From a virus, in the IMG/VR virus record IMGVR_UViG_3300006924_000096, positions 1-30,923 of that record: 30,923 nt of DNA; one strand, given 5' to 3'. How positions within the stretch are numbered: the stretch's first letter is position 1; every line of letters starts with the position of its first letter. Below are positions 10,229 through 13,895 of this stretch, one piece after another. Position numbers and translations under genes: made by a program. The notes under the pieces were generated by a model. The model had not been told where the DNA came from and searched no databases. It saw only the letters and a program-made list of their open reading frames with translations.

Positions 10229-10256
10229 CGAGCAGAAATTATTTTTAGATGTGTCA
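10229..10256 (+). promoter_or_regulatory. 28-bp conserved element, copy 1
   Basis: The element begins CGAGCAGAAA, has a T-rich middle and ends TGTGTCA. It is one of three copies with identical internal spacing. This copy lies 58 bases before the ATG at 10315 and is followed by GGGTTT and, 5 bases later, CATGG, a trailer shared with copy 2. It sits between the divergent late block and the first plus-strand gene. A promoter or regulator-binding role is inferred. Confidence 0.65.
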
Positions 10257-10314
10257 GGGTTTAATCATGGAAAGCACAAGCTGACCAAGAACGAAAATCA
10301 TAGGAGTAAAAACT

Positions 10315-10770: not shown

Positions 10771-10920
10771 ATGAGTGTATATAAACATATTAAAGTACAT
10801 TACTTTGATAGAAACCAACCTAAAGTGAGAACATTTGATAATGCATTAGAAGCTAACTTGTTTATCAAGTTCCCACCACAAGACATAAGAATAGTTAGCT
10901 GGATTCCACTATCTAACTAA
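10771..10920 (+). CDS. 49-aa hypothetical protein
   Basis: The ATG at 10771 has an ideal AGGAG Shine-Dalgarno at 10761-10765. The frame encodes MSVYKHIKVHYFDRNQPK... and ends ...IRIVSWIPLSN. It looks like one small folded beta/alpha unit, with an aromatic-rich strand, a helix (NALEANLFIKF) and a final hydrophobic strand. It lies 42 bases after the previous gene and just before a strong terminator, so the two genes form one short transcription unit. No family is recognised. Confidence 0.65.
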   Translation: MSVYKHIKVHYFDRNQPKVRTFDNALEANLFIKFPPQDIRIVSWIPLSN

Positions 10921-10940
10921 CTAGCCTACCTACCTACCTA

Positions 10941-10971
10941 CCCTCACTCAATCGAGTGGGGGTTTCTTTTT
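10941..10971 (+). terminator. strong rho-independent terminator
   Basis: A 9-bp stem (10941-10949 with 10954-10962, one G-T pair) has the tetraloop AATC and is followed by TTTCTTTTT. It ends the short two-gene unit begun at 10315. It is preceded by four TACC tandem units (about 10927-10942). Confidence 0.88.
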
Positions 10972-11048
10972 GTCTATCAAATCGTTTACGATTTGATTAT
11001 ATCATAACTTTACATAGATATCACTAACTTTACATACACATAGATATA

Positions 11049-11082
11049 TAATCAATAGGTTCTAGTAATCAATAGGTTCTAG
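11049..11082 (+). repeat. 17-bp tandem duplication
   Basis: The 17-mer TAATCAATAGGTTCTAG is present twice with no gap (11049-11065 and 11066-11082). It lies in the repeat field. Confidence 0.9.
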
Positions 11083-11273
11083 AATGTCGGAAGGTTAAAG
11101 TAGTATATATATATAAACCATTGGTCGGTAGGTTATGGCACGTATAATGCAACTATATAGACTATCTAGTTGTAACTTTACGCAACTTTACATGTTCTAG
11201 ATAGTAAAACCTTACACATGTAACCTTACATTCCCTTAGTTTACGCCATATATAGGGCATTATGCTATCCATA

Positions 11274-11300
11274 ACTATCTAAACTATCTAGACTATCTAG
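11274..11300 (+). repeat. three tandem 9-bp iterons
   Basis: ACTATCTAA (11274-11282), ACTATCTAG (11283-11291) and ACTATCTAG (11292-11300) lie head to tail. The same 9-mer recurs at 11161-11169 and 11431-11439, and inverted at 11197-11205 and 11390-11398. Confidence 0.85.
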
Positions 11301-11488
11301 TTATTTTAATATAATGCGTCACTAAGCGTTTACATCTAGCAATATACTAAATTTCGCAGCGATACATTACCCATAAAAAACTAGATAAACTAGATAGTTA
11401 ATGCCAACTTGTTGATATATATAAAGTTTTACTATCTAGTTACACACCCATTAAGATAACTTTACATAGATAGTTATATATACAATGC

Positions 11489-11516
11489 CGAGCAGAAAAA
11501 AATTTTCGATGTGTCA
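11489..11516 (+). promoter_or_regulatory. 28-bp conserved element, copy 2
   Basis: The element has the same CGAGCAGAAA start, a central AT tract and CGATGTGTCA end. It lies 76 bases before the ATG at 11593 and at the right edge of the repeat field. The trailer AGGTTT plus CATGG matches copy 1. Confidence 0.65.
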
Positions 11517-11592
11517 AGGTTTTGGCATGGCGAGGGATTTCCCCTTGTTATATATAATATTAACTATCGCCCTATGGGGCAGGATATAAACT

Positions 11593-11970
11593 ATGAACGA
11601 CAATGTAAAAGAGTATGTAAGGTGGAAACCTATAATCAAAAAAGGGAATGCTACTAAAGGCATTAATGCTGGCGACTTGCACATTAAAGTTGTTGAGTGT
11701 GATAAAAAACACCCTAAAGCAATGTGTACTGACAATGTTATGGCTATTGTAACTAAAGGTCTTAACGCTATTGGCAAACTTGTTGGTGGCAAAGAGATAC
11801 TAGCTATGGACTTCTCTGACAGAGAGAAAGAGAGACACATTGAGGATAAGCATAAAGTGTGGTCTATCCAACGCTCTGGAAAGTGGGGTAAAGAGTTGTA
11901 TTTATCCTTTACTGTACCATCAAGTAACAGTAATGCACTTGATGATGAGTTTGATATAGATAATCTATAA
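11593..11970 (+). CDS. unknown early protein with acidic C-terminus
   Basis: The product is 125 aa with an AGGA Shine-Dalgarno at 11581-11584. It has a basic N-terminal half with GKLVGGKEILAMDF in the middle, a strand-like stretch (GKELYLSFTVPSSNS) and an acidic ending DDEFDIDNL. Such tails occur on ssDNA-binding proteins, but no OB-fold is clear, so this is only a resemblance. It stands alone downstream of element copy 2, next to the putative origin, and is followed by a 10-bp hairpin. An origin-associated role would be speculation. Confidence 0.7.
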   Translation: MNDNVKEYVRWKPIIKKGNATKGINAGDLHIKVVECDKKHPKAMCTDNVMAIVTKGLNAIGKLVGGKEILAMDFSDREKERHIEDKHKVWSIQRSGKWGKELYLSFTVPSSNSNALDDEFDIDNL

Positions 11971-11991
11971 TCATCTTACAACAACTTGTGG

Positions 11992-12020
11992 TATCCCTAG
12001 TGATGTACTAGGGATATCCT
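11992..12020 (+). terminator. hairpin, possible weak terminator
   Basis: A perfect 10-bp stem (TATCCCTAGT 11992-12001 with ACTAGGGATA 12007-12016) has a 5-nt loop. The following TCCTTTAT is only moderately T-rich. It lies between the 11593 gene and the zinc-ribbon gene, so it may be an attenuator or processing hairpin. Confidence 0.55.
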
Positions 12021-12037
12021 TTATGAGAGGTATAAAT

Positions 12038-12238
12038 ATGGCTAGATGTAGAGACTGTAATGTTATTATACAACAAGGTAGAGTATCACTAGGCTACGAT
12101 ACATGCCTAGTTTGTGGTGAGGTTGAGGCACGTAAGGTTAAGCATACTGTGGTGCCATTGCATAAGTCTAACTACATAGTAGTGAGCAATAAAGAGGACT
12201 TGAAAGGAATTAATAACAAAGGTGGTAAACATGACTGA
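12038..12238 (+). CDS. small zinc-ribbon protein (DksA/TraR-like finger)
   Basis: From ATG 12038 the product is 66 aa. An upstream ATG (12023) overlaps the Shine-Dalgarno GAGAGG (12025-12030), so the later one is chosen. Cys pairs C4-C7 and C23-C26 (CRDC ... CLVC) form a four-Cys zinc site of the C-x2-C...C-x2-C type with GRVSLGYDTC between, resembling the C-terminal finger of DksA/TraR. The C-terminal part (VVPLHKSNYIVVSNKEDLKG) is conserved in other marine phages that I recall. It could touch RNA polymerase like TraR, but it lacks the coiled coil, so that is uncertain. Confidence 0.7.
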   Translation: MARCRDCNVIIQQGRVSLGYDTCLVCGEVEARKVKHTVVPLHKSNYIVVSNKEDLKGINNKGGKHD

Positions 12239-12446
12239 TGATATACAAGAGGTTACTGTACACATAGCAGTAATACAAAATGGTACTGTGCATATGTATT
12301 GGAACACTAGATTCTATGTACATGATAGTGAGGGCGTATTAGATAAGGCATTAGAGTTTGTCAAAAGGCAAGGACACAATCAAGAACAATGCAGTTGGGC
12401 AATAGTAGGTAGCCTTATTGAAAGGCATAATGAATATATGGGTTAA
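12231..12446 (+). CDS. small hypothetical protein
   Basis: From ATG 12231 the product is 71 aa (MTDDIQEVTVHIAVIQNGTV...). It has strand-like N-terminal sequence, then helix (VLDKALEFVKRQG) and CSWAIVGSLIERH. The Shine-Dalgarno AAAGGTGG lies at 12218-12225, so ATG 12231 is favoured over the GTG at 12222. It overlaps the zinc-ribbon gene by 8 bases, so the two are co-translated. No family is recognised. It is the last ORF before the structured non-coding stretch. Confidence 0.65.
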   Translation: MTDDIQEVTVHIAVIQNGTVHMYWNTRFYVHDSEGVLDKALEFVKRQGHNQEQCSWAIVGSLIERHNEYMG

Positions 12447-12470
12447 CTTGTGATTATGAGACACAAGTGT

Positions 12471-12809
12471 GGGGTAGGTAGTGGCAAAGTAGGGTATAAT
12501 AAATATACGGATTTAATTCCAAAATCCCACGCCTACCTACCTCTAATGAATATTTCTCAATGAGTAATTAGTACTCAAGCTTATTGGGAGCATAGATGTA
12601 AGCTAGCGTATACATCTATGTAGGGTAGATAGCTAGATGGTTGGTGATTCTTAGTCCATGAAAGCCAACATAAAGACTACCAAGATGACTATGTATGGAG
12701 CAAAACTAGTCTATCTATCCTTAATGAATTACTAGAACGAAATCACCTAGCAATAGGTTGGAGATAGGTAACGCTGTATCGTTCCAGCATGTAGGTTACT
12801 TATCTCTAA
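12471..12809 (+). ncRNA. candidate structured non-coding RNA
   Basis: The 459-bp gap between 12447 and 12905 has no credible ORF but is full of nested inverted repeats. Helix A: 12471-12481 with 12533-12543 (11 bp, one G-U), enclosing hairpins 12494-12508 and 12509-12527. Helix B: 12556-12561 with 12583-12588, near inner hairpin 12562-12576. Helix C: perfect 10 bp, 12591-12600 with 12611-12620. Helix D: 12624-12636 with 12706-12720 (13 pairs, two single bulges). Helix E: 12758-12772 with 12795-12809 (15 bp, two G-U) capped by GCTG/CAGC. None carries a T-tail. Strand is assumed plus because the flanking genes are plus. No known RNA family is recognised. Confidence 0.55.
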
Positions 12810-12818
12810 GGACTATGC

Positions 12819-12846
12819 CGAGCAGAAATTTTTTTCGGCTGTGTCA
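12819..12846 (+). promoter_or_regulatory. 28-bp conserved element, copy 3
   Basis: CGAGCAGAAA start, T-run and TGTGTCA end at the same spacing as copies 1 and 2. It lies 59 bases before ATG 12906. Here the element is also an inverted repeat (GCCGA 12817-12821 with TCGGC 12835-12839). The trailer differs (AAATCAAAC). A short hairpin (12863-12868 with 12875-12880) follows in the leader. Confidence 0.65.
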
Positions 12847-12905
12847 AAATCAAACAAGAATTTCCCACAATGTCGTGGGGATATAACAACACATAGGAGA
12901 AAACT

Positions 12906-13895
12906 ATGAGAGCGAAACTACTTATGCAAACCCTAAAGGACTTGTTTAAGATAAAGAGGACAGTAGCTATCGAGGGTAGCCCTGGGGGTGGTAAGACTAC
13001 CATATGCCAACAGGTTGCCAAAGAGCTAGGTGTCGGATACGAAGAAGTGCATATGCCAACCATGTTGGTAGAGGACTTCGGTATTCCTATACCTCAGCCT
13101 GATGGCTCACTTAAATATTCCATACCACATTGGATACCCGTAGTGGGTAGCGACCACCCTGATACAGGTATATTGGTACTTGATGACATGAATCAAGCTA
13201 GTGCTGACTTACAGAAAGTGGTAGCTAACATGTGTCAAGCAAGGAATGTACATGGCTATCAAATCAAAGAGGGGTGGCAGATTGTATCAACAGGTAACAA
13301 GGTGTCGGACAGAGCTGGTGCTAATCGTGTATTGTCTCACTTACGTAACAGGCATACTGTGTATGACTTAGAGACACACGTTGATGATTGGTATGCATGG
13401 GCTATTGAACACAATGTAAAGCCTGAAGTCATCTCATTCATCAAGTTCAGAACGGACTTGTTGCATGACTTTGACCCACAAAGAGAGTCTAACCCTACAC
13501 CACGTTCATGGGTAGAGGGTGTGTCTAATGCAATAGGTGTCGTATCACCTGAGGCAGAGTATGAGACATTCAAAGGTGCTGTCGGTGAGGGTGCTAGTGC
13601 AGAGTTCACAGGGTTTGTGAAGATATATCGTAACCTACCTGATATGGAACAGGTCATTAAGAAACCACTTGAGGCTACTGTGCCTACTGACCCAGCTACA
13701 TTGTATGCAATGTCTGGCAGTCTAGCTACGTACTCAACAGTGGATAACTTCAAGAATGTACTGACATATCTAGACAGGATACCCCCTGAGTTTTCAGTAC
13801 TGTCGGTATCGTATGCAGTCAAGAAGAATGTCGAGCTGATGAACACACCTGAGTTCACTAAGTGGGCAGTCGATAAGCAGAATGTAATTATATAA
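12906..13895 (+). CDS. MoxR-like AAA+ ATPase
   Basis: The product is 329 aa. Walker A is GSPGGGKTT (residues 24-32), Walker B is ILVLDDMNQ (89-97) and sensor 1 is VSTGN (127-131), followed by an arginine-rich LRNRH. This is the AAA+ module of the MoxR/CobS group, which remodels or inserts metals with a VWA-domain partner. AGGAG lies at 12895-12899. It starts a three-gene cassette with a DUF3150 protein and a VWA/metallopeptidase protein, behind element copy 3. That order is what MoxR/VWA pairs show. The phage substrate is unknown. Confidence 0.88.
   Translation: MRAKLLMQTLKDLFKIKRTVAIEGSPGGGKTTICQQVAKELGVGYEEVHMPTMLVEDFGIPIPQPDGSLKYSIPHWIPVVGSDHPDTGILVLDDMNQASADLQKVVANMCQARNVHGYQIKEGWQIVSTGNKVSDRAGANRVLSHLRNRHTVYDLETHVDDWYAWAIEHNVKPEVISFIKFRTDLLHDFDPQRESNPTPRSWVEGVSNAIGVVSPEAEYETFKGAVGEGASAEFTGFVKIYRNLPDMEQVIKKPLEATVPTDPATLYAMSGSLATYSTVDNFKNVLTYLDRIPPEFSVLSVSYAVKKNVELMNTPEFTKWAVDKQNVII

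Follow-up and report, generated by a model that had tools for sequence, protein, structure and literature searches.

Sequence comparison points to an array of separate, clamp-closed RNA cassettes in uncultured viral contigs

In the window, the whole 30,923-nucleotide stretch of viral DNA analysed here (IMG/VR virus record IMGVR_UViG_3300006924_000096), the gap ahead of an AAA+ ATPase gene appears to hold an array of separate RNA cassettes and not one RNA, each payload being carried in a closing helix that we call the clamp, a reading well supported by comparison with related loci. That comparison brings out the modules themselves, clamps that covary, payloads that stay constant under different clamps, swaps at one site, sharing between two lineages, a polarity, and the membership of a tRNA in some arrays. 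To our knowledge phage ncRNAs are few and have usually been discovered family by family; here one thing to search for, the clamp with its linker, brings dozens of RNA families in uncultured phages within reach, signs of exchange included. In its organisation such an array would be categorically new, while any one payload alone would be another new ncRNA family. The carrier phages are probably marine: by its portal protein a carrier is distantly related to phages of Rhizobium, Roseobacter (CRP-2) and Pelagibacter (HTVC033P), and the latter two suggest such a setting.

Helices of the window array and their comparative support

An earlier note on this DNA had described a multi-helix structured RNA candidate at 12446-12810, and the four helices it named are all present at the places it gave, together with two hairpins beyond its list (M0 and M5a; Table 1). 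The array lies between the end of an ORF at 12446 and the start of the AAA+ gene at 12906, and its description as free of ORFs and of terminators holds as well: no plus-strand ORF of at least 50 aa lies within the array, the preceding one ending at 12446, and no terminator-like site occurs on either strand of 12446-12810, one such site standing outside it on the minus strand (12879-12864). A minus-strand ORF (12806-13063) touches the array's end.

Table 1. Features of the window array and its surroundings.
Feature	Positions	Strand	Description
M0	12446-12468	+	leading hairpin ACTTGTG/CACAAGT, from sequence; similar array-opening hairpins in L051, L057, L058, L064
M1	12471-12543	+	clamp cassette GGGTAGGTAG/CTACCTACC round payload family c; closing stem of ~10 bp, two hairpins inside
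Linker CTCTAATGAATA	12541-12552	+	variant of TTAATGAATT
M2	12554-12589	+	hairpin; copy in L107 92% identical over 49 nt
M3	12590-12621	+	perfect 10-bp hairpin (12591-12600/12611-12620), 10-nt loop; L107 identical over 39/39 nt
M4	12622-12721	+	clamp cassette, payload family p; bulged helix closes 12623-12721
Linker TTAATGAATT	12721-12730	+	same 10 bases after 53/84 catalogued cassettes
M5a	12745-12758	+	small hairpin ACCTA-GCAA-TAGGT
M5b	12760-12807	+	13-pair helix (12760-12772/12795-12807), inner GCTG/CAGC helix (12773-12776/12785-12788) beside bulge, invariant loop TATCGTTC
28-bp element within ~42-nt element	12819-12846 (12819-12860)	+	copies 10229-10270, 11489-11530
AAA+ ATPase gene (phrog_1297)	12906-13895	+	downstream of array; query for related loci

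Folded as plus-strand RNA, positions 12446-12905 (460 nt) reach -138.3 kcal/mol against -105.1 (sd 6.6) for dinucleotide shuffles, a z of -5.0 with none of 100 shuffles equally stable, and the modules folded singly give z values of -2.95 (M1), -2.8 (M2), -4.15 (M3), -2.35 (M4) and -4.7 (M5). When a 150-nt frame is moved along both strands of the window, the array's best position (12751, plus strand, z -4.1) ranks 8th of 822, which is unexceptional, so fold energy alone is not decisive. It is comparative evidence, and not energy, that carries the case for the structure, which on these sequence grounds we take as confirmed.

A lack of compensatory changes, which the earlier note had set as grounds for refutation, is not what we see: such changes occur in M5, in M1 and in the clamps of other families. 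In M5, aligned from seven contigs (L-numbers denote related loci in uncultured viral contigs), 22 pairs hold in 100% of cells and four are changed on both sides, a number reached by 2 of 500 shuffles; neither any of the 500 shuffles nor any slid version attains the covariation score, and the number of pair types is unremarkable (152/500 shuffles). M5a is invariant in these seven contigs and is thus silent on pairing. M4, which stands outside the covariation counts, recurs in L032 and L078, 97% identical along 99 nt but altered in its 5' arm. In a further test anchored on the payload, with the clamp left unconstrained (families M1, a, b, k, e, W, g, d and f), 23 distinct arm pairs were compared, and 21 of them pair throughout; one mismatch each is seen in family e of L052 and L152, two of the four e clamps. 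Double and single changes number 3 and 2 in M1, 4 and 12 in a, 2 and 2 in b, 3 and 1 in k, and 2 and 0 in W, with none broken in these families; comparisons within e yield no double change, 3 single ones and 5 broken pairs, g and f are invariant, and d shows one single change. A single payload can thus be found in different clamps with both strands altered, families V and Q occurring in four clamps each. When the clamp pairs of V, Q (taken once), W, k, M1 and M5 are pooled, 43 changes are double, 23 are single and none is broken, a count of pairwise comparisons and not of independent events, with registers set by eye in a way that favours pairing; it omits the 10-pair Q set, and with both Q sets the figures become 48, 25 and 2. 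All 78 catalogued cassettes described below have standard clamp pairs at positions 1-9, and 76 have one at position 10, but this near-complete pairing (0/1000 arm shuffles) is largely by construction, cassettes having been selected for pairing, GG(A/G)TAG and CTA. For family R (11 sequences), RNAalifold reports a double change in 1 of 19 pairs. Family e apart, changes that compensate each other across a pair would mark these elements as structured RNAs.

A catalogue of cassettes and their exchange between loci

With the AAA+ protein (phrog_1297) as query, 8 and then 20 viral-contig loci were retrieved, the two sets overlapping, and the gaps upstream of the AAA+ gene proved strongly divergent in content between relatives; a block of the form GGGATAGATAGG...CCTATCTATCC TTAATGAATT recurs there. 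A scan for CTATCCTTAAWGAATTR returned 105 stretches, 48 of them with a catalogued clamp cassette (a false one in L014 excluded), and two clamp-only scans returned 27 and 17 stretches comprising 16 new loci, every one with a catalogued cassette. After removal by hand of repeats from the same contig, 64 carrier loci were left, some of them near-identical. We catalogued 84 unique cassettes in the sense orientation; 78 remain once nested or false ones are dropped, and the 8-mers they share sort these 78 into about 47 payload families. Modules mostly measure ~25-130 nt and payloads ~10-100 nt. The commonest clamp is GGGATAGATAGG/CCTATCTATCC, often with the linker TTAAT(G/A)AATT after it, and the likeness of clamps across payloads is partly a matter of selection, the finder having fixed GG(A/G)TAG and CTA and the scans still more. 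TTAATGAATT makes up the ten bases 3' of the clamp in 53 of 84 cassettes, a count inflated by the CTATCCTTAAWGAATTR scan, which itself required the linker, and TTAATAAATT does so in 9 of 84. Among 14 cassettes first catalogued in the 16 clamp-scan loci, exact TTAATGAATT follows none and TTAATAAATT follows seven, so the linker is better seen as a family of A/T-rich sequences, looser than first apparent. Other clamps were read by eye in the arrays, AAGG/CCTT in family R and AATAC/GTATT in family S, as were small RCCTA...TAGGT hairpins. When eight virus records of 33-55 kb were searched with two clamp patterns, five gave matches, each confined to one region, and the remaining three gave none despite cassettes at their loci, which means that these patterns overlook variants. 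A small hairpin like GAGCAGATAACGACTGCTC stands directly before the first clamp or clamp-like sequence in L023, L048, L070, L080, L086, L135, L143 and L149.

The cassettes have a polarity. On the sense strand defined by the linker, G.U pairs outnumber A.C pairs by 55 to 9 (86 cassettes, from both strands; those with no clear linker, 32 in number, stay out of this count). The nearest downstream gene shares the cassette's strand in 68 of 74 cases, with 6 opposite, and the upstream gene in 71 of 77, and an ORF of at least 70 aa is overlapped by 6 of 84 cassettes (false and nested ones included), antisense in all six. ARAGORN found tRNA-Asn(GTT) in four of the 60 loci scanned (L007, L050, L063 and L136); the linker precedes it in 4/4, and TAAT(G/A)AATT follows it in 3/4, L050 ending inside the gene.

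Exchange can be read both at single sites and between lineages. Behind a gene whose end carries GGAGTATCTGT, seven contigs hold five different first cassettes (g in L019 and L045, k in L031, c56 in L037, a in L038 and L053, c130 in L083); an eighth match, L048, was dropped because no clamp follows. M3 precedes M4 in the window, and the identical M3 of L107 is directly followed by a different cassette. Single-linkage grouping by at least 1500 nt of shared DNA separates two main lineages, one of 39 loci (GC 0.33) and one of 21 including the window (GC 0.38), besides four singletons, and 12 of 20 patterns tested (11 RNA families and the tRNA) are common to both. The 51-nt payload of M1 is identical (51/51) in the window, L035, L060, L077, L084 and L136 and sits under three clamps in all, the window's and two others; L060, L077 and L084 belong to the other lineage and differ from the window in their clamp, and a shorter form of the payload occurs in L057, L075 and L102. 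Near-identical payloads may in part be due to recent transfer.

Proposed role and competing explanations

We lean slightly towards the view that the cassettes are small structured RNA genes within a rightward phage operon, trimmed at their linkers, protected by their clamps and acting in trans through their payloads. Operon RNA would be cut at the A/U-rich linkers UUAAU(G/A)AAUU in an RNase E-like manner, and the clamps would shield the ends of the released cassettes, which would survive as small RNAs and act in trans via their payloads on host or phage factors. Turnover of the repertoire would come about by recombination at common clamp and linker sequences, as for accessory host-interaction genes. 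The looser linker and the catalogue's built-in selection slightly lower our confidence in this view and in the wider proposal below. If the payloads do act in trans, the arrays would parallel accessory gene cassettes at the level of RNA, and the clamp would be a handle for finding, expressing and pulling down each payload. Only tentatively, and at something short of an even chance, do we go further and propose a previously undescribed RNA-gene exchange system, with interchangeable payloads, with clamp and spacer serving both release and recombination, and with no fewer than 47 trans-acting effectors that the phages would draw on in common, their likely use being host takeover or counter-defence; such a pool, if true, can be likened to the protein anti-defence genes shared in islands.

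Stripped of their clamps, the payloads of 40 families have a mean fold z of -0.17, with 2 of 40 below -2; from this lack of excess stability it follows that stability comes from the clamp, and what is conserved in the payload seems to be its sequence. A recognition sequence put on display, or a tertiary fold, suits this better than a generic stabiliser does. Several specific roles were tried for the payloads and rejected. Complementarity to E. coli 16S, 23S and 5S rRNA, which may not be that of the true host, has a mean longest run of 7.85 nt against 7.73 nt, with 37 of 100 shuffles as high, and complementarity to the payload's own contig reaches 8.96 against 8.89 nt (19/60 as high). As for dimers through kissing loops, several payload hairpins have self-complementary loops, yet palindromes are not enriched over dinucleotide shuffles: 44 palindromic 6-mers against 41.3 (182/500 shuffles as high) and 11 8-mers against 10.2 (222/500). 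In family R (L011 11720-11802 and ten relatives) the loop is self-complementary in the variants read, with a changing sequence (UGCA, CUAG, CGCG), and that of family j likewise (UCGA versus UGCA). Peptide genes were also set aside, just four Shine-Dalgarno-led matches of at least 6 aa having turned up, two of them the same frame of payload c91; that payload (L053 4361-4445 and L083 11260-11344, both in minus-strand coordinates) holds a Shine-Dalgarno-led 12-codon frame, MSLVQTTMRKLS.

The main rival, which we consider doubtful, is that the cassettes are cis-acting 5' or intercistronic stabilisers of mRNA, or sites of RNase processing, much like the RNase III sites of the T7 early region in role, with the payload as filler or as a means of tuning cleavage. 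Their position between genes on the sense strand is what such elements would have, and several cassettes stand directly 5' of ribosome-binding sites, often with the site and its ORF following at once. A TTGACA-TATAAT-like sequence ends at most ~18 bases from the first clamp in nine contigs, which are not all independent and were found with an expression of our own that had no chance control; no such promoter-like site was found before the window array, which begins right after the preceding gene. The payloads' folding, not in excess of shuffles, also suits this explanation. Against it stand the tRNA that belongs to some arrays and the payload of M1, kept at 51 of 51 nt under three clamps and in two lineages, whereas filler needs no conservation, though recent transfer may account for part of it. 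Even as hairpins acting in cis, the cassettes would constitute a new signal for mRNA processing or stability, one with an oddly conserved insert.

It is improbable that the modules are mobile hairpins at the level of DNA, comparable to integron attC sites or other single-strand DNA elements, with the clamp as recombination site and the RNA incidental. Content does change at clamp borders, clamp sequence is similar across payloads (in part by selection, as noted), and G.T on one strand is compatible with single-stranded DNA, but co-orientation with the downstream gene by 68 to 6 and a tRNA among the modules speak against it, and the payloads seem too conserved and too diverse for a pure recombination site. 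A role in DNA recombination may nonetheless coexist with one as RNA.

Similarly improbable is a riboswitch or attenuator leader of the AAA+ operon, a function related to the riboregulator that the earlier note had offered. M5 does lie upstream of the AAA+ gene in six of seven aligned contigs, L035 ending at M5. Related modules also precede genes other than AAA+, however, and swap, which makes regulation of this operon in particular unlikely; L118, L121 and L123, whose AAA+ proteins are 87-88% identical, lack M5 in the 750 nt upstream, and the array is without a terminator-like site. The packaging signal proposed in the same place is unlikely too, because array content varies between close relatives. 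Chance self-complementarity of an intergenic gap has next to no probability: the sliding-window rank would allow it, but the z of -5.0 over 460 nt and the covariation argue against it, and the M5 alignment together with the recurrence in other contigs refutes it.

Comparison with known RNAs and other elements of the window

None of 4227 Rfam models (release 15) matches the whole window at its gathering threshold. At E <= 1, positions 11900-12910 match DABA-DC-AT (18.6 bits where gathering asks for 56.1, E 0.099) and snoR135, each falling far short of gathering, and six array loci give the true tRNA of L063 and two sub-threshold matches. ARAGORN finds no tRNA or tmRNA in the window; the GOLLD and ROOL models reach threshold nowhere in the window, and at E <= 1 neither of them matches the array or the six array loci. 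A new class of phage ncRNA, as the earlier note had ventured, therefore stands in kind, since the helices covary and no Rfam family matches at gathering, but not as to its unit, which would be a string of separate exchangeable modules in place of one multi-helix RNA of ~340 nt.

Against GenBank phage records, a 'distant' blastn search with the window gap gave no match at 1e-5, and a 1001-base stretch of L141, its cassette lying outside, gave none either. At E <= 1 the array stretch of L083 had short matches in 27 records, the main one being 31 nt in staphylococcal phages within the ORF part of the query, and that of L032 matched 19 records over ~30-70 nt. One 501-nt array stretch had no match among plasmids. 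In 84,980 species genomes searched for exact patterns, the linker pattern had no match and the clamp pattern one self-complementary match, in a Paludibacteraceae MAG, taken as chance. A literature search, to which subscription papers were mostly closed, yielded no description that we recognised as one of such arrays.

Several known systems share some of these traits. The tRNA cluster of phage T4 includes small stable RNAs of no assigned function, and like such phage clusters the arrays would be rows of short stable-RNA genes mixed with tRNA; unlike it, they share a clamp and a linker, their payloads are exchangeable and number in the dozens, and their only tRNA is tRNA-Asn (4/60 loci). The early region of T7 has RNase III sites between genes, which are likewise sense-strand hairpins between phage genes, whereas here payload families cross phages under different clamps that have a common sequence. 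Integron cassettes, exchangeable modules joined at a shared folded attC site, are alike in both respects and by description differ in that the modules here are RNA-sized. GOLLD and ROOL are structured ncRNAs of phages and prophages, often near tRNA genes and with no assigned function (PMC12286853); both have elaborate folds, and many GOLLD exceed 800 nt. The arrays resemble them as phage-borne structured ncRNAs in the vicinity of tRNA, and differ in consisting of many short separate cassettes with a common clamp. Racr RNA anti-CRISPRs are small phage ncRNAs that mimic CRISPR repeats (PMC10651486); the likeness lies in being small phage ncRNAs, with counter-defence as one possible role here, and the difference in the many unrelated payloads of the arrays.

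The 28-bp element beside the array is probably not part of it. It lies within an element of ~42 nt, CGAGCAGAAA...TGTGTCA, whose three copies lie ~1.3 kb apart and each start 86-104 nt before the ATG of a rightward gene, and which has a relative in L136; it is perhaps a phage-specific promoter, operator or binding site. Between the leftward structural genes and the rightward genes, 10980-11480 is AT-rich with many direct and inverted repeats, among them a 42-nt imperfect inverted repeat within 11282-11399, and has the look of an origin of replication or a control region. The most extreme z of the sliding scan (-8.05) belongs to 10876-11025 on the plus strand, which spans a terminator-like hairpin at 10940-10963.
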